DNA of 28,654 bases, from IMG/VR virus record IMGVR_UViG_3300028377_000042, positions 1 through 28,654 of that record. One strand, 5' to 3'. Source of the DNA: a virus. How positions within the stretch are numbered: position 1 is the stretch's first letter; the number at the start of each line of letters is the position of its first letter. Below the pieces are notes generated by a model that worked only from the letters and a program-made list of their open reading frames with translations, was not told the origin of the DNA and ran no database searches. A program made the position numbers and the translations under genes. Shown piece after piece: positions 1,579-9,440 of the stretch.

Positions 1579-1628
1579 TAAATATCATCCTTTTAAATTT
1601 TTATGGTTTTGTTTATCTTTCTATACTA

Positions 1629-1657
1629 ATTATAACATGCTCCTGTTTCTTTGTCAA
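1629..1657 (-). promoter_or_regulatory. proximal promoter of the exonuclease gene
   Basis: Minus strand TTGACA (1657-1652), 17 bases, TATAAT (1634-1629): a perfect sigma-70/sigma-A consensus, followed by the leader TAGTATAGAAAGATAAAC. Confidence 0.9.
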
Positions 1658-1715
1658 GCCTTTAAACAATTAATTTTAATTTCTTTTGAGCGCCTTTCTC
1701 TCAACCTCTATACTA

Positions 1716-1762
1716 ATTATAGCATGATATAAGACTTTTTACAATAGGTGAAAACGCTTTCA
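1716..1762 (-). promoter_or_regulatory. distal promoter with an upstream cre-like operator
   Basis: Minus strand TTGTAA (1744-1739), 17 bases, TATAAT (1721-1716). Immediately upstream, TGAAAACGCTTTCA (1749-1762) fits the 14-bp cre consensus TGWNANCGNTNWCA of CcpA, a LacI-family regulator. Near-identical promoter and operator modules recur at 2889-2935 and 4116-4162. A cre upstream of a weak -35 is the arrangement seen where CcpA activates; that it does so here is inference. Confidence 0.7.
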
Positions 1763-1777
1763 TTTTAGGAATAAAAG

Positions 1778-1836
1778 CGTGTCGTGGAGAAGGGTTCACA
1801 TTTAGGCGTGTCGTGGAGAAGCATTTCCACGACACG
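1778..1836. repeat. GTGTCGTG repeat and 30-nt inverted repeat
   Basis: A single CGTGTCGTGGA at 1778-1788 is followed by a complete hairpin at 1807-1836 (CGTGTCGTGG paired with CCACGACACG). It lies between the exonuclease promoters and the next gene's terminator. Confidence 0.75.
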
Positions 1837-1847
1837 GGTAACACGAT

Positions 1848-1870
1848 AAAAAAAAGGGCTTTCGCCCTTT
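1848..1870 (-). terminator. rho-independent terminator of the 101-aa gene
   Basis: On the minus strand AAAGGGC (1870-1864), loop GAAA, GCCCTTT (1859-1853), then a continued T-run to 1848. Classic form, directly after the stop codon at 1876. Confidence 0.9.
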
Positions 1871-1875
1871 AATTA

Positions 1876-2181
1876 TTAATCAAACAATTTGATTTCTTGT
1901 TCTGGTTCCTTATGTTTCATACTTGATTTGGTGCTTTTGTATTCAGGTGCGAGAGTGGTTACACTACCACTGATTTCAAAGTAGATGGGGTCCTCTGTTT
2001 GCTCATCATTTGCGATTTGAATAGCAAGCGTTTTTCTTGCAGTTTCTACAACCTCAAGTCCGGTTGCATTTTCTACGGCGGTTTTTGCCATTTTCATGCT
2101 TTGCTCTTTCATTTTGTTTCTTACGCTCACTTTTGGGTTCCCTTTGACATTTGTAAAATCTACTAGTTTCAAAATAATCAC
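1876..2181 (-). CDS. hypothetical protein, about 100 aa
   Basis: Not recognised. The product is a small soluble protein. Its middle (EQSMKMAKTAVENATGLEVVETARKTLAIQIA, in part) looks helical, and the C-terminus is charged and ends EQEIKLFD. The start is uncertain: GTG at 2181 lies only 2 bases after AAGGA, while an in-frame TTG at 2172 has an 11-base spacing and would start MKLVDFTNVKG. There is no Trp. It has its own promoter (2219-2247) and a strong terminator, one complete cassette of this region. Confidence 0.72.
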   Translation of the reverse strand: MIILKLVDFTNVKGNPKVSVRNKMKEQSMKMAKTAVENATGLEVVETARKTLAIQIANDEQTEDPIYFEISGSVTTLAPEYKSTKSSMKHKEPEQEIKLFD

Positions 2182-2218
2182 TTTCCTTTTCTATATTTTT
2201 TATTTTTGATTATACTTA

Positions 2219-2247
2219 ATTATAACATGCTTTTTGTTACTTGTCAA
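2219..2247 (-). promoter_or_regulatory. promoter of the 101-aa gene
   Basis: Minus strand TTGACA (2247-2242), 17 bases, TATAAT (2224-2219). The TGA inside TTGACA is in frame with the end of the upstream gene, and the TAA in TTATAAT is its next stop, so promoter and gene end overlap. Confidence 0.9.
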
Positions 2248-2678
2248 GAGTTTTTACGATTTTTCCTTCTCAGTCGCATATGTAAATAATCATCCTGTTC
2301 TTTTTCTTTAACTTTTCTTGATTGATTGTAGGCCGATTTGGCGTGTTTTTTACGTTGTTTACGATTTTTCATTTTAAGTTCTTGTTCCTTTGCGTACGCT
2401 TCAGTTTCATGCACTGTATCAAAATCAAATGATTTGATTTTAATATCAATAGTTGCAGGTATAGAGCCCTCATGTGAGTTAGGTAATTCAAGCACGATGC
2501 CTTCCTTGTTCATGCCTACCGCAATCTTCATGTCTTTAAAATCAGCGAGTAAAGCGTTCATGATATCAGTTTTCAATTTACGGTGTTCAGTTTGCTTGAT
2601 TTTTTCGCCTTTTTTAGTTGTAGTAATAGTAAACTTTTTACTCTCTACCTTTTTTAAAATAGTCTTAAAATGCTCCAT
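2220..2678 (-). CDS. hypothetical basic protein, 144 or 152 aa
   Basis: Not recognised. ATG at 2678 follows a strong AAAGGAGG site. The first 100 residues look like a small alpha/beta domain; the tail (about 100-144) is highly basic, rich in Lys and Arg (KMKNRKQRKKHAKSAYNQSR, then MRLRRKNRKNS), suggesting nucleic-acid binding. With the standard code it stops at TGA 2246-2244 inside the next promoter's -35; with TGA as Trp it continues WQVTKSML to TAA at 2222-2220 inside the -10. Both endings are given because the code in use for this region is not settled. Three tandem promoters lie upstream. Confidence 0.75.
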
Positions 2679-2712
2679 TTGTTTTACCTCCTTTTTCTCA
2701 ACCTCTATACTA

Positions 2713-2741
2713 ATTATAACACGATATTAACAATTTGTCAA
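2713..2741 (-). promoter_or_regulatory. promoter 1 of 3 for the basic-protein gene
   Basis: Minus strand TTGACA (2741-2736), 17 bases, TATAAT (2718-2713), followed by the shared leader TAGTATAGAGGTTGAGA. It is the promoter closest to the gene. Confidence 0.88.
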
Positions 2742-2800
2742 TGGTTTTAGTGAATTAATTTTAATTTCTTTTGAGCGCCTTTCTCTCAACCTCTATACTA

Positions 2801-2829
2801 ATTATAACACGATATTAACAAGTTGTCAA
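2801..2829 (-). promoter_or_regulatory. promoter 2 of 3 for the basic-protein gene
   Basis: Minus strand TTGACA (2829-2824), 17 bases, TATAAT (2806-2801). It is an 88-bp tandem duplicate of the promoter at 2713, including leader and downstream spacer. No gene lies between the two copies. Confidence 0.85.
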
Positions 2830-2888
2830 CGGTTTTAGTGAATTAATTTCAATCTCTTTTGAACGCCTTTCTCTCAACCTCTATACTA

Positions 2889-2935
2889 ATTATAGCACGA
2901 TATAAGACTTTTTACAATAGGTGAAAACGCTTTCA
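2889..2935 (-). promoter_or_regulatory. promoter 3 of 3, with cre-like operator
   Basis: Minus strand TTGTAA (2917-2912), 17 bases, TATAAT (2894-2889), with TGAAAACGCTTTCA at 2922-2935 upstream. It is a copy of the 1716-1762 module. A GTGTCGTGGA motif (2951-2960) follows 15 bases further upstream. Confidence 0.7.
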
Positions 2936-2982
2936 TTTAGGAATAAAAGCGTGTCGTGGAACGATTTTTTGTTGCTTTTTTC

Positions 2983-3011
2983 TTGACATTATGATTTGCG
3001 TCTGGTATTTT
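2983..3011 (+). promoter_or_regulatory. plus-strand promoter into a non-coding stretch
   Basis: TTGACA (2983-2988), 17 bases ending in TGG, TATTTT (3006-3011; extended -10). It faces the opposite way to all nearby genes and reads into the GTGTCGTG hairpins at 3040-3097. No plausible gene follows, so a short non-coding transcript is the likely product if the promoter is active. Confidence 0.45.
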
Positions 3012-3039
3012 TTATAAAGATTATAACAAGGCATATAAC

Positions 3040-3097
3040 CGTGTCGTGGAAATGCCCCTCCACGACACACTTAAATATAAACCCTCTCCACGACACG
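3040..3097. repeat. GTGTCGTG inverted repeats
   Basis: CGTGTCGTGGA (3040-3050) pairs with TCCACGACAC (3059-3068). A second inverted copy, TCCACGACACG, sits at 3087-3097. This lies in the long gene-poor stretch 2679-3273, which otherwise holds only promoters and one possible small RNA. Confidence 0.75.
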
Positions 3098-3106
3098 CCT
3101 ATAAAA

Positions 3107-3253
3107 TAAAAAAAAGAGCGGTGGAGGCTCGCATATTCCACGCTTTAAGTTTAATTAAGTCCTTGAACACTCCTTTTAATATAAATGATAGGCGCCTTTG
3201 TACGCATAGGTAGCGCCCTTGAGAGACCTTATAGCGTCTTAGTCTCAACCTTA
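3107..3253 (-). ncRNA. possible short RNA or leader-peptide transcript
   Basis: A perfect promoter at 3260-3288 reads minus into about 145 bases that end in an imperfect hairpin (GTGGA paired with TCCAC, plus a bulged lower stem) and a T-run at 3114-3107. The interval contains only tiny ORFs (18 aa from an ATG without a good ribosome site; about 22 aa from a GTG fused to AGGAGTG). Either a small RNA, a mini-protein or a decayed cassette fits. Confidence 0.35.
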
Positions 3254-3259
3254 CAACTA

Positions 3260-3288
3260 ATTATAACATGCTCCTACTTCTTTGTCAA
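3260..3288 (-). promoter_or_regulatory. promoter of the 3107-3253 transcript
   Basis: Minus strand TTGACA (3288-3283), 17 bases, TATAAT (3265-3260). The -35 overlaps the end of the 26-aa mini-gene. Confidence 0.85.
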
Positions 3289-3354
3289 GCCTTTAAGCAA
3301 TTCTTTTTGTAATTCTTTTGTTACTTTTTGCTTTTTGGCTCTCTTGTCTTTCAA
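3274..3354 (-). CDS. basic mini-protein, 26 aa
   Basis: Too short for usual gene calling. A TTG start at 3354 has AGAGGTG about 6 bases upstream and a consensus promoter at 3411-3439. The product is almost entirely Lys, Glu, Gln and Leu (begins MKDKRAKKQK, ends LKGLTKK) and would form one amphipathic, basic helix. It ends in TAG inside the next promoter. Function unknown. Support is the promoter and ribosome-site arrangement shared with neighbouring cassettes, not homology. Confidence 0.5.
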   Translation of the reverse strand: MKDKRAKKQKVTKELQKELLKGLTKK

Positions 3355-3379
3355 GAAAAACACCTCTTTTTGAATATTA

Positions 3380-3403
3380 AGGTGGCCTACCACAACCACC
3401 TTA
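3380..3403 (-). promoter_or_regulatory. 5' leader hairpin of the mini-gene
   Basis: On the minus strand AAGGTGG and CCACCTT form a 7-bp stem with a 10-nt loop, just after the predicted start of transcription and upstream of the ribosome site. It may stabilise the RNA or affect its translation. Confidence 0.45.
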
Positions 3404-3410
3404 CATATAT

Positions 3411-3439
3411 ATTATAACACAATTATTATTGTTTGTCAA
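3411..3439 (-). promoter_or_regulatory. promoter of the 26-aa mini-gene
   Basis: Minus strand TTGACA (3439-3434), 17 bases, TATAAT (3416-3411): perfect consensus. Confidence 0.88.
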
Positions 3440-3491
3440 ATCTTTTTTTACCGCGTTATAAAGACTATTAGTACTCACATTCTCAAAGTGT

Positions 3492-3707
3492 TTAGATAAA
3501 TATTACCGCCATCGCGATTTGATACATATTACCGCCACCGCGATTTGCTACGATAGTTTGTTCTATGCATTCCCCGCTTTTTTCCGTAACAATAAAAACG
3601 TCGCTGTGCCTTATTGCTCTAATGTAGTCATAGGCGCTTTTAAAATCTTTAAATTCTATTCCAAATTCCGTGGAGCCTTGCTCACTTATTCTGTGTGCTG
3701 TTACCAT
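3492..3707 (-). CDS. hypothetical protein, 71 aa (duplicated gene, copy A)
   Basis: Not recognised. ATG at 3707 is chosen because AAAGGAG lies 9 bases upstream; the ATG at 3716 touches the ribosome site. The sequence begins MVTAHRISEQGSTEFGIEFK and includes an FKSAYDYIRAIRHSDVFIVTEK segment typical of a small alpha/beta fold. It is nearly identical to the neighbouring copy B, and the two differ mainly at their C-termini and in one N-terminal repeat. It has its own perfect promoter at 3739-3767. It ends in TAA. Confidence 0.72.
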   Translation of the reverse strand: MVTAHRISEQGSTEFGIEFKDFKSAYDYIRAIRHSDVFIVTEKSGECIEQTIVANRGGGNMYQIAMAVIFI

Positions 3708-3738
3708 ATCTAACATCTCCTTTTATCTTTCTATACTA

Positions 3739-3767
3739 ATTATAACATGTTCCTGTTTCTTTGTCAA
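3739..3767 (-). promoter_or_regulatory. promoter of copy A
   Basis: Minus strand TTGACA (3767-3762), 17 bases, TATAAT (3744-3739), leader TAGTATAGAAAGATAAAAGG. It overlaps the 3' end of copy B. Confidence 0.9.
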
Positions 3768-3997
3768 ATGTTTTTTATCGCCACCACGATTTGATACATA
3801 TTACCGCCACCGCGATTTGCTACGATAGTTTGTTCTATGCATTTCTCGCTTTTTTCCGTAACAATAAAAATGTCCCTGTGCCTTATTGCTCTAATGTAGT
3901 CATAGGCGCTTTTAAAATCTTTAAATTCTATTCCAAATTCCGTGGAGCCTTGCTCACTTATTCTGTGTGCTGTTACCATACTGTGTGCTGTTACCAT
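3740..3997 (-). CDS. hypothetical protein, 77 or 85 aa (duplicated gene, copy B)
   Basis: A near-copy of the 3492-3707 gene. It starts at ATG 3997 (AAAGGAG 9 bases upstream) and carries a duplicated N-terminus, MVTAHSMVTAH, from an 18-base internal duplication. It differs from copy A by a few residues (for example GECIEQ to EKCIEQ) and at the C-terminus (VVAIKNI). With the standard code it stops at TGA 3766-3764 inside the promoter of copy A; with TGA as Trp it runs WQRNRNML to TAA at 3742-3740. Function unknown. Its promoter is 4029-4057. Confidence 0.7.
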
Positions 3998-4028
3998 ATC
4001 TAACATCTCCTTTTATCTTTCTATACTA

Positions 4029-4057
4029 ATTATAACATGCTCCTGTTTCTTTGTCAA
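4029..4057 (-). promoter_or_regulatory. promoter of copy B
   Basis: Minus strand TTGACA (4057-4052), 17 bases, TATAAT (4034-4029), with the same leader as copy A. Confidence 0.9.
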
Positions 4058-4115
4058 GCCTTTAAACAATTAATTTTAATTTCTTTTGTACCGCTTTCTC
4101 TCAACCTCTATACTA

Positions 4116-4162
4116 ATTATAACACGATATAAGACTTTTTACAATAGGCGAAAACGCTTTCA
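4116..4162 (-). promoter_or_regulatory. second promoter of copy B with degenerate cre-like site
   Basis: Minus strand TTGTAA (4144-4139), 17 bases, TATAAT (4121-4116). Upstream CGAAAACGCTTTCA (4149-4162) differs from the cre consensus only at the first base. Third copy of the 1716-1762 module. Confidence 0.65.
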
Positions 4163-4176
4163 TTTTGAGGAATAAG

Positions 4177-4228
4177 CGTGTCGTGGAAATGCTCCTCCAC
4201 GATACGATAACACAAAGCGTGTCGTGGA
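4177..4228. repeat. GTGTCGTG repeats
   Basis: CGTGTCGTGGA (4177-4187) is inverted-repeated as TCCACGATACG (4196-4206), and another CGTGTCGTGGA lies at 4218-4228, just before the terminator of the next gene. Confidence 0.75.
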
Positions 4229-4234
4229 GCAAAC

Positions 4235-4264
4235 AAAAAAAGACACTTGGCTATACCAAGTGTC
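4235..4264 (-). terminator. rho-independent terminator of the 50-aa gene
   Basis: On the minus strand GACACTTGG (4264-4256), loop TATAG, CCAAGTGTC (4250-4242), then seven T (4241-4235). The stop codon (4253-4251) sits in the loop. Confidence 0.93.
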
Positions 4265-4403
4265 CGTATTTTTCTTCGAGTTTTTCAAGAGCTTTGCGGT
4301 GTCTATCAGCCCTAATACAGTCGCGCCCTTTGGCGTTTTCGTACGCGTTTTTCCTGAGCCTAATAATTACTTTCCAGTTTTCTTTAGTTCTTTTCATTTC
4401 CAT
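4251..4403 (-). CDS. hypothetical basic protein, 50 aa
   Basis: A short gene with full expression signals: promoters at 4452-4480 and 4527-4555, AGGAG 10 bases before ATG 4403, and a strong terminator overlapping its TAG stop. The product starts MEMKRTKENWKVIIRLRKNA and ends KALEKLEEKYGHLV. It is basic and probably all helical, with one TGG Trp. No family recognised. Small size and basic charge fit an early phage protein that binds a host factor or nucleic acid, but this is only a suggestion. Confidence 0.75.
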   Translation of the reverse strand: MEMKRTKENWKVIIRLRKNAYENAKGRDCIRADRHRKALEKLEEKYGHLV

Positions 4404-4451
4404 GTGTAAATCACTCCTATAGATTTTTTGGTTTCTTTATCTTATATACAT

Positions 4452-4480
4452 ATTATAACACGCAATCAATGGTATGTCAA
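4452..4480 (-). promoter_or_regulatory. promoter of the 50-aa gene
   Basis: Minus strand TTGACA (4480-4475), 17 bases, TATAAT (4457-4452): perfect consensus. Confidence 0.9.
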
Positions 4481-4526
4481 CACTTAAATTAATTTAATTT
4501 TTTGGCTCCTTTATCTTTCTAACTTA

Positions 4527-4555
4527 ATTATAACACGTAATCAATGGTATGTCAA
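4527..4555 (-). promoter_or_regulatory. upstream duplicate promoter of the 50-aa gene
   Basis: Minus strand TTGACA (4555-4550), 17 bases, TATAAT (4532-4527). It is a 75-bp tandem copy of the 4452 promoter. Its leader keeps an AAAGGAG that is followed by no gene, so this looks like a cassette promoter duplicated without its gene. Confidence 0.85.
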
Positions 4556-4590
4556 CACTTAAATTAATTTAATTTTTCTTTGCTTTTTCC

Positions 4591-4619: not shown

Positions 4620-4652
4620 GATACCTCTATAACACAGGTTACACATTATATA

Positions 4653-5318
4653 TGTAAACGCTTACATACCCTGCTCATGTAAACGCTTACATACCTGCAC
4701 GACACACTATAATGTAAACGCTTACATACCCTGCTCATGTAAACGCTTACATACCTGCACGACACATCATAATGTAAACGCTTACACGGCACACATCATA
4801 ATGTAAACGCTTACATACCTGCACGACACACTATAATGTAACCGCTTACATAACATACTATAATGTAACCGCTTACATAACATACTATAATGTAAACGCT
4901 TACATAACATACTATAATGTAAACGCTTACATAACACACTATAATGTAACCGCTTACATACCTGCACGACACTATAATGTAACCGCTTACACGGCACACA
5001 TCATAATGTAACCGCTTACATACCTGCACGACACACTATAATGTAAACGCTTACATACCCTGCTCATGTAAACGCTTACATACCTGCACGACACATCATA
5101 ATGTAAACGCTTACACGGCACACATCATAATGTAACCGCTTACATACCTGCACGACACACTACAATGTAACCGCTTACACGGCACACATTATAATGTGAG
5201 CGCTTACATAACACACTATAATGTAACCGCTTACACGGCACACATTATAATGTAACCGCTTACATAACACACTACAATGTAACCGCTTACATAACACACT
5301 ATAATGTAACCGCTTACA
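4653..5318. repeat. array of 23 cre/LacI-type operator palindromes
   Basis: Twenty-three copies of a 14-bp pseudo-palindrome start at 4653, 4678, 4713, 4738, 4773, 4802, 4837, 4864, 4891, 4918, 4945, 4978, 5007, 5042, 5067, 5102, 5131, 5166, 5195, 5222, 5251, 5278 and 5305. Twenty-two read TGTAANCGCTTACA (11 with A, 11 with C at position 6); one (5195) reads TGTGAGCGCTTACA. All fit the cre consensus TGWNANCGNTNWCA. Spacings are 25, 27, 29, 33 or 35 bp. Linkers fall into four types, one carrying GCACGACACA, which shares the core of the dispersed GTGTCGTG motif. Blocks of the array are themselves duplicated (offset 329). It is not coding and not CRISPR (repeats too short, linkers repeated). Candidate roles: regulator sponge, iteron origin or centromere-like site. 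Confidence 0.93.
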
Positions 5319-5451
5319 TACCTACACGACTAAATAAAAAATGTTGTCTTTCAGTCTCCTGAAGCACACACGCATTAGATACCCGCATAAGCGCATACAA
5401 AGCACCTGATGATACTATGTACTGTATGCACTACATAAGCGCACACAAGGC
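5319..5451. other. non-coding spacer between array and terminator
   Basis: No gene is seen. It contains two related stretches (CATAAGCGCATACAAAGC near 5390 and CATAAGCGCACACAAGGC near 5434) and a short inverted repeat near 5348 (TTCAG/CTGAA). With 4404-5318 it makes a gene-free interval of about 1 kb. Confidence 0.6.
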
Positions 5452-7573: not shown

Positions 7574-8584
7574 CTAATTGGTGCTATAACCATAAATTTT
7601 TGCACCAAAGTATTTCATTCAATAGTTTTCTCGTTCTTTTAATTTTGTGCGGTCGACTTCTTCAATCATTTCATATTTAAAGTTTTCTATTCCCTCTTGA
7701 AGCATTTCAGTATATAATTTTTTCTTTGTAGTGTTTGATGCGCCTAACCCCGCTTTGGTGTGTTGTTTGATGCGGTTAGCTATATCAACCGTCTTACCAA
7801 CGTAACACTTTCCAGAAGGCATATGAGTTATTTTATAAATGCCACTTATTTTGCGGCCGTTCGTTAGGCGATTGGTCAAATCTTTAACTGGCTCGCGATA
7901 GTACATGTCATATATTGCTTTTCTTAAAGGTAACTCATTTTTAATTTTTGGTAAAACTTTTTTAAGTTCCTCAATTTCTGATATATCTTCAGAAGATATT
8001 TGAATTTTATAAAAATCTTCTTTATTTTGCTCTTCATATTCTCTAATGCGGGCGTTTATTGCGGCCTGCTCTTTACTTCGTAGGTCTTTTAACTGATTCT
8101 CAATTGATTCTTTTTCTTCTGAAAGAGAATTTCGCTTTTCTTCTAAATCTTTTTGAATTGTATTAACTTGGTTTTCATAAGTTTTCTTTAGTTTATCAAC
8201 ATTATCATTAACAATTTGTTTTGCTTCTGCAGTTCTTTGTTCTTTATATTTTTGTGTCTCTTCTTCAATATCTTGATTTAATCTATTTCTAAGTTTATTG
8301 GTTTCTTCAATTGCCTCATTCATTCACTGTTTTTCTAATTGATTAACTTTTCTTTCTTGCTCTTGAAGTTCTTTTTGAAACTCTTGTTTTTGATTATTAA
8401 ATTCTTTCTTCTGTTGCTCTTTCTTGTTACGAAAATTTTCATCTAGTTTGCGATTGAGTTCTTTAGATTTATATTTAGTAATAATATCGACTATTTTGTT
8501 ACTACGCCATAAGCTTAATAATAATATTGTAAAAAGGAGAAATATAATAATAGTCGATATTACTACAGAAATAATTATTTTCAT
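7574..8584 (-). CDS. membrane-anchored coiled-coil GIY-YIG nuclease (DUF4041-like), 336 aa
   Basis: Reading TGA as Trp joins three pieces (TGA at 8326-8324 and 7621-7619). Residues 3-28 are one hydrophobic helix (MKIIISVVISTIIIFLLFTI). Residues 40-200 are a long Glu-, Lys- and Gln-rich coiled coil. A conserved-looking segment (LRKAIYDMYYREPVKDL) precedes a GIY-YIG domain: GIY 248-250, CYVG near 260-263, ANRIKQH with Arg 271 and His 275, and the family's typical ERENYWMKYF end, in which W is the second TGA. The order transmembrane/coiled coil/GIY-YIG is that of phage DUF4041/T5orf172-type proteins. It would cut nucleic acid at the membrane; the target is unknown. Standard-code ribosomes would make only an 86-aa anchor, with an ATG directly after that TGA. 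Confidence 0.85.
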
Positions 8585-9044: not shown

Positions 9045-9440
9045 TTATTCAACTCCTATTTTTTTTATTTTTTCTTCTATATAATTATAGATGATTACTA
9101 CTTTTTGCGGGTACTGTTTTGCTATATTAATTGCATTTTTAGTTCCAGCAGACTCTCCATCTCAGAAGGCAATTATTATATCGCTGGAAATTACTATATT
9201 TTCATTGCGAATTATTGGTGCGGCCCTTCGACTAGCTGAATAGTTTGGATAATATATTGTTATTGGATAACCTTCATTTTTAGCAAAGTTATGGCCCAGT
9301 GTATCCGCACCTTTTTCTCCGCCTGAAACAAAATGAGGTTCTTCTATAAAATATTTGTTTAAAACCGCTTCAACTAATTCTTTTAATGTTTTATAATCTT
9401 TGAATGTTTTTGAACCAATTAATGCAATGTATTTATTCAA
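9045..9440 (-). CDS. SLOG/DUF2493-family protein, 131 aa
   Basis: Start TTG 9440, with AGGAG 8 bases upstream. Reading TGA at 9164-9162 as Trp completes the family signature: ALIGSKTF (Rossmann-like start), VSGGEKGADTLGH, RNENIVISSD and AFWDGESAGTKNAI. These are the motifs of the SLOG (SMF/DprA-LOG) DUF2493 group, which binds nucleotide-like ligands; such proteins occur in phages and in nucleotide-signal defence systems. The ligand here is unknown. It is first in the operon, read from the promoter at 9528. Under the standard code the conserved WDG loop would be lost, which is good evidence for Trp. Confidence 0.85.

Follow-up and report, generated by a model that had tools for sequence, protein, structure and literature searches.

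The nuclease gene in the window (the whole stretch of viral DNA that was analysed, 28,654 nucleotides) is best explained as encoding a single-chain, tethered nuclease that acts on DNA at the membrane. The protein would be built of an N-terminal membrane helix, a coiled-coil stalk and a C-terminal, cytoplasmic GIY-YIG domain of the I-TevI type, and to this architecture and the tethered role taken together an even chance is given. Its sequence, build and conservation, and the surplus of reassigned stops in TAG-recoded relatives, are shown by the data; we infer membrane insertion, topology, nuclease activity and DNA target of the protein. The features of the gene and other elements referred to below are collected in Table 1.

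Table 1. Positions of the nuclease gene, its parts and other features (window coordinates unless a locus is named).
Feature	Positions	Strand	Basis or remark
Complete gene for the 336-aa GIY-YIG nuclease with membrane anchor and coiled coil, TGA=Trp (predicted)	7574..8584	minus	ORF, domain matches, AF2
N-terminal transmembrane helix, residues 1-25 (predicted)	8510..8584	minus	hydrophobic stretch, start of AF2 helix 2-124
Long coiled-coil stalk, residues 26-187 (predicted)	8024..8509	minus	AF2 helices 2-124, 130-187
TGA codon 87, read as Trp, ATG next	8324..8326	minus	column unconserved in homologues
Small helical domain, residues 188-245, IWKxYYEKPxTDLxGRV motif	7850..8023	minus	family alignments
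GIY-YIG catalytic domain, I-TevI type, residues 246-335	7580..7849	minus	PF01541, structure match
TGA codon 322, Trp within nuclease domain	7619..7621	minus	aromatic in 60/60 members
SLOG-family (YspA/DprA-like) gene	9045..9440	minus	
Near-palindromic repeats, about 20	4641..5330		
Promoter-like stretches; hairpin copies	1600..4580		
Phass-1 homologue, L003	4488..5468		
TAG-rich RuvC-like/RecJ-like gene, L134	10562..11035		
TAG-rich RuvC-like/RecJ-like gene, L135	2516..4255		
TAG-rich RuvC-like/RecJ-like gene, L162	5877..6398		
TAG-rich RuvC-like/RecJ-like gene, L176	12885..13427		
TAG-rich RuvC-like/RecJ-like gene, L187	8093..9811		

The open reading frame of 336 codons, described in the initial annotation with UGA read as Trp, was confirmed under code 4; it is terminated by TAG, and the standard code would cut it at codons 87 and 322. 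Code 4 applies throughout the window, where 29 in-frame TGA and 15 TGG codons are spread over 29 genes and the 28 complete genes end with TAA (21) or TAG (7) and never with TGA. Thirteen of the window TGA codons could be aligned to the relative L045, in which Trp is present at 6/13 and Phe or Tyr at three more, and at codon 322 every one of the 60 family members, among which the window protein is counted, has W, Y or F. It follows that UGA is Trp in the window and that code 4 is real, so that one chain is made, with no split product, once the phage code is in force. No suppressor tRNA was found in the window, the record of which is a fragment, or in the nine loci scanned. Elsewhere in the window there is an array of repeats of the ATGTAAACGCTTACAT type, spaced by 25-64 nt, that are possibly iterons or operator sites, and in a further region a promoter-like stretch (reverse complement of TTGACA...TATAAT) and a hairpin whose arms read CGTGTCGTGGA each recur several times in similar form.

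The window protein matches GIY-YIG families in profile searches (PF01541, E 4e-9; TIGR01453, E 2e-16) and has the GIY and YIG motifs, the conserved Arg and Glu and the predicted alpha/beta fold that define the GIY-YIG superfamily. In its AlphaFold model (mean pLDDT 91) two long helices, 2-124 and 130-187, are followed by the small helical domain and then by the GIY-YIG domain. Conservation is low along the stalk; the small helical domain is conserved throughout the family and was modelled with pLDDT of about 97, and the Pfam search returned no match for it. Structures of I-TevI were the only PDB entries matched with E < 0.001 in the structure search, the nuclease domain being aligned to 1mk0 and 1ln0 at E 1e-5 with a TM-score by target of 0.79-0.85. 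Among family members the mean net charge is +1.3 after the transmembrane helix and about 0 before it, which is consistent with a nuclease on the cytoplasmic side; the positive-inside topology is only moderate, as it is found in 43/60 members, and the window protein has +1 on each side.

Homologues were found far beyond the window. The TAG-recoded gut phage Phass-1, detected by tblastn, encodes a protein of the same build, 326 aa long when its eight TAG codons are read as Gln; because of its in-frame TAG codons the deposited annotation splits this protein into two hypothetical proteins. Profile scans of IMG/VR gave 134 loci, of which 80 were kept, and in such scans four of seven GTDB contigs have more than the nuclease domain. 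The proposal of a membrane-anchored GIY-YIG nuclease, made from the window alone, is supported and can be generalised, as hydropathy predicts an N-terminal transmembrane helix in 74/74 complete family genes, under three codes, and all 56 aligned members match the GIY-YIG family. Invariant in 60/60 members are G248, I249, Y250, Y261, G263, R271, H275, F302, E305, E319 and G332. The code labels of these 60 non-redundant members (29 standard, 27 TAG=Gln and 4 TGA=Trp) were checked for 24 records on whole or sampled contigs. In the tree the window gene has a long branch and sits with members most of which are TAG-recoded; the TGA members, four in all, do not form one group. The family seems to be large and widespread in gut phages, with a SNIPE-like build and another nuclease subtype; a literature search, which had most subscription journals outside its reach, retrieved neither a description of it nor experiments on its members. 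Two other matches were set aside: a similarity to the spanin family phrog_1403 (E 5e-5) spans the transmembrane helix and coil only and was read as compositional, and the match in a crAss-like phage (H77) comes from a GIY-YIG gene of 244 aa that stands by itself beside a gene for a transmembrane protein and is not a fusion.

It was proposed in the initial annotation that the code in force could decide where the nuclease acts: termination at UGA would give an anchor of 86 aa and perhaps, by reinitiation, a soluble nuclease, and reading UGA as Trp would give the membrane form. The ATG that follows TGA87 at once (TGAATG) is present in the sequence as described, and the gene's own ATG stands directly after upstream stops (TAGTAAATG) with no clear Shine-Dalgarno, which leaves room for translational coupling at such starts; ATG88 has no clear Shine-Dalgarno ahead of it either. 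Nevertheless, such a localisation switch is unlikely, and to our judgement very improbable, because codon 87 is unconserved and falls within a single unbroken helix of the model (2-124), and because a product running from Met88 to codon 322 would lose the end of the nuclease. In none of the 59 non-redundant relatives is this position a stop codon, neither TGA nor TAG being found in the column of the family alignment; relatives that carry a normal codon there without a following ATG, the sequence half of the refuting observation named in the initial annotation, were looked for and found. At other places in the family, reassigned stops show no fixed position, and the standard-code group, which makes up 29/60 members, has a single uninterrupted chain; a code-dependent split at TGA87 was rejected as a conserved device, as there are homologues without it. 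The predicted reinitiation product would be short of the last 15 residues, which hold the always-aromatic position and the invariant Gly332. The TGA-ATG arrangement occurs also at sites where it cannot matter: an ATG comes straight after TGA322 of the window gene, where a restart would yield a short tail only, and one comes straight after TGA231 in the gene for the portal. In total 3 of the 29 in-frame TGA in the window are followed by ATG versus about 0.8 expected (P about 0.045); across the family TGA or TAG is followed by ATG at 6 of 177 reassigned stops versus 4.9 expected.

The number of reassigned stops in the family gene points to a different influence of the code. A first count was made on short loci whose code had been assigned from the nuclease gene itself, and with this ascertainment bias TAG constituted 28% of Gln codons in the family gene versus 7% in its neighbours. 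When seven large contigs were read whole, with the code set from total coding coverage, TAG was found at 40/142 Gln codons in the family gene, 100/1317 in the 16 nearest genes and 1869/11230 in the rest of the genome. Sampling of 12 further contigs labelled as standard-code added one probable TAG phage (L085) and one probable TGA phage (L095), both of which entered the final counts. In the sampled contig G313, which was added, TAG is confined to ORFs close to one end and is missing from the family gene. The data suggest that L085 is a further TAG-recoded member, and L095 is probably a further TGA-recoded one, with reassigned stops absent from the family gene in both. The final count over eight TAG phages, two of them with little excess and one with none, was 40/163 (25%) in the family gene versus 100/1357 (7%) in the genes on either side (Mantel-Haenszel OR 4.6, p 5e-13). 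Expressed as TGA per Trp codons, the family gene and its flanks gave 5/5 versus 8/72 and 2/2 versus 10/28 in two TGA phages, 0/1 versus 0/17 in L095 and 2/3 versus 3/8 in the window; the pooled values, 9/11 versus 21/125 (p 2e-5), rest on few codons and represent a trend only, and the share of 2/3 in the window gene is no different from that in the rest of the contig (27/41).

Given this excess over adjacent genes in TAG-recoded phages, with a trend the same way in TGA-recoded ones, the code might govern whether any nuclease is produced. The enrichment fits on/off gating by a switch of code better than it fits a switch of location. Synthesis of the nuclease would then be delayed until the phage code is established; in the Phass-1 paper suppressed stop codons were reported to mark mainly late phage genes (PMC10607447). 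In a stronger version, which is regarded as rather doubtful, the whole family would be time-locked by the reassignment of stops: in recoded phages the coil between anchor and nuclease would carry so many of them that only an anchor fragment is made until the phage code takes over, after which the nuclease would stand guard at the membrane. The gating alone has a competing explanation, to which we give somewhat less than an even chance, namely that reassigned codons build up in the fast-evolving coil without any regulatory meaning. This would agree with the little or absent excess in three of the eight TAG phages and with the higher frequency of TAG in the coil (137/424 Gln codons) than in the nuclease part (14/121) in the ascertainment-biased count, and some of the excess may come from relaxed constraint in the coil. 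However, the nuclease part alone, at 12% in that same biased count, is still above the flanking 7%, the TGA-recoded phages follow the same trend, and among genes in TAG-poor blocks no increase of the TAG share with K/E/Q content was seen (rho -0.10), so that this content does not explain the TAG excess. Genes for RuvC-like and RecJ-like nucleases are also TAG-rich in TAG-poor blocks of TAG-recoded relatives (Table 1). If the code switch does gate the gene, it would offer a concrete test of why phages reassign stops, namely the holding back of a dangerous enzyme.

In relatives the gene is usually preceded by that of a DNA ligase and, immediately upstream, of a small winged-helix-like protein, and it is followed by a phrog_6721-like protein and, in some, by a Sak4-like annealing protein; the Phass-1 neighbourhood includes also ribonucleotide reductase and ThyX. 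The window gene is located outside this neighbourhood and is preceded by genes for a SLOG-domain protein and for a protein of 154 aa, with which the membrane nuclease forms an apparent operon. Exactly one full-length copy was found in 13 of the 14 records searched, several of which also contain free GIY-YIG paralogues. No copy was found in the related L045, a 15-kb fragment, and this absence suggests that the gene is accessory in the window lineage.

The tether would probably restrict cleavage to DNA lying against the inner side of the membrane and would spare the phage's own replicating DNA. The target would most likely be DNA entering from competing phages, or possibly membrane-associated host DNA; a nuclease attack on incoming rival DNA is plausible by analogy, and superinfection exclusion would be the first guess for the role, held at slightly less than even confidence, with host-DNA degradation as the second. 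T4 EndoII (DenA), also a phage GIY-YIG nuclease, is a smaller, soluble protein with a role in host DNA breakdown, and a nuclease of this manner would cut the chromosome near the membrane and feed the phage nucleotide pools. We consider that unlikely for the window family: the usual ligase and recombination neighbourhood, the ribonucleotide reductase and ThyX of Phass-1 and the single full-length copy per record would suit it, but the richness in reassigned stops suggests a non-early protein, and EndoII, besides being soluble, is a poor structural match (E 0.84). Matches of the GIY-YIG domain to homing-endonuclease families and the free paralogues in the same phages could also indicate a homing-endonuclease derivative, retained as a selfish or neutral gene. 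Such an origin seems quite improbable in view of the order of transmembrane helix, coil and nuclease kept across deep divergence, the one full-length copy per record in a conserved usual neighbourhood, and the absence of a DNA-binding region after the GIY-YIG domain. The tethered nuclease at the membrane is considered most likely because of the analogy with SNIPE, which is anchored, cuts at injection and is toxic when unanchored.

With I-TevI-type homing endonucleases the family shares a catalytic domain alike in sequence, fold and invariant residues. Unlike in those enzymes, this domain is C-terminal and is preceded by the membrane helix and coil; the alignment, too, contains no DNA-binding region C-terminal to the nuclease, the window protein ending one residue past the domain, and the gene looks free-standing. 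UzuA of the Uzume system has a C-terminal GIY-YIG domain in common with the family, and 50/56 members match its PADLOC model. Uzume was rejected: inspection of five members showed a match that does not extend beyond the GIY-YIG domain or its edge, and the UzuA N-terminal region was not found in them. A close comparison is also provided by SNIPE of E. coli (TM - DUF4041 - GIY-YIG), which is anchored by one transmembrane helix; it cleaves the DNA of phages as this is injected, and loss of the anchor makes it toxic (PMC13190303). The likeness consists in a single N-terminal transmembrane helix (predicted here), an elongated helical middle and a C-terminal GIY-YIG domain, the cytoplasmic location of which was shown for SNIPE and is predicted for the window protein. 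The window family differs in being phage-encoded and often rich in reassigned stops, and in its I-TevI-type nuclease, that of SNIPE being of the GYVYxISN...YKIGMTRR type. DUF4041 (PF13250) is absent from the window and from the 25 families listed for the 56 members, and a profile comparison with six DUF4041 proteins reached an hhalign probability of 12%. Membership in SNIPE was therefore rejected on the missing DUF4041 and the different GIY-YIG subtype; a SNIPE-like architecture seems also to exist in phages, there combined with another nuclease subtype and no DUF4041, and to be common in those of the gut.
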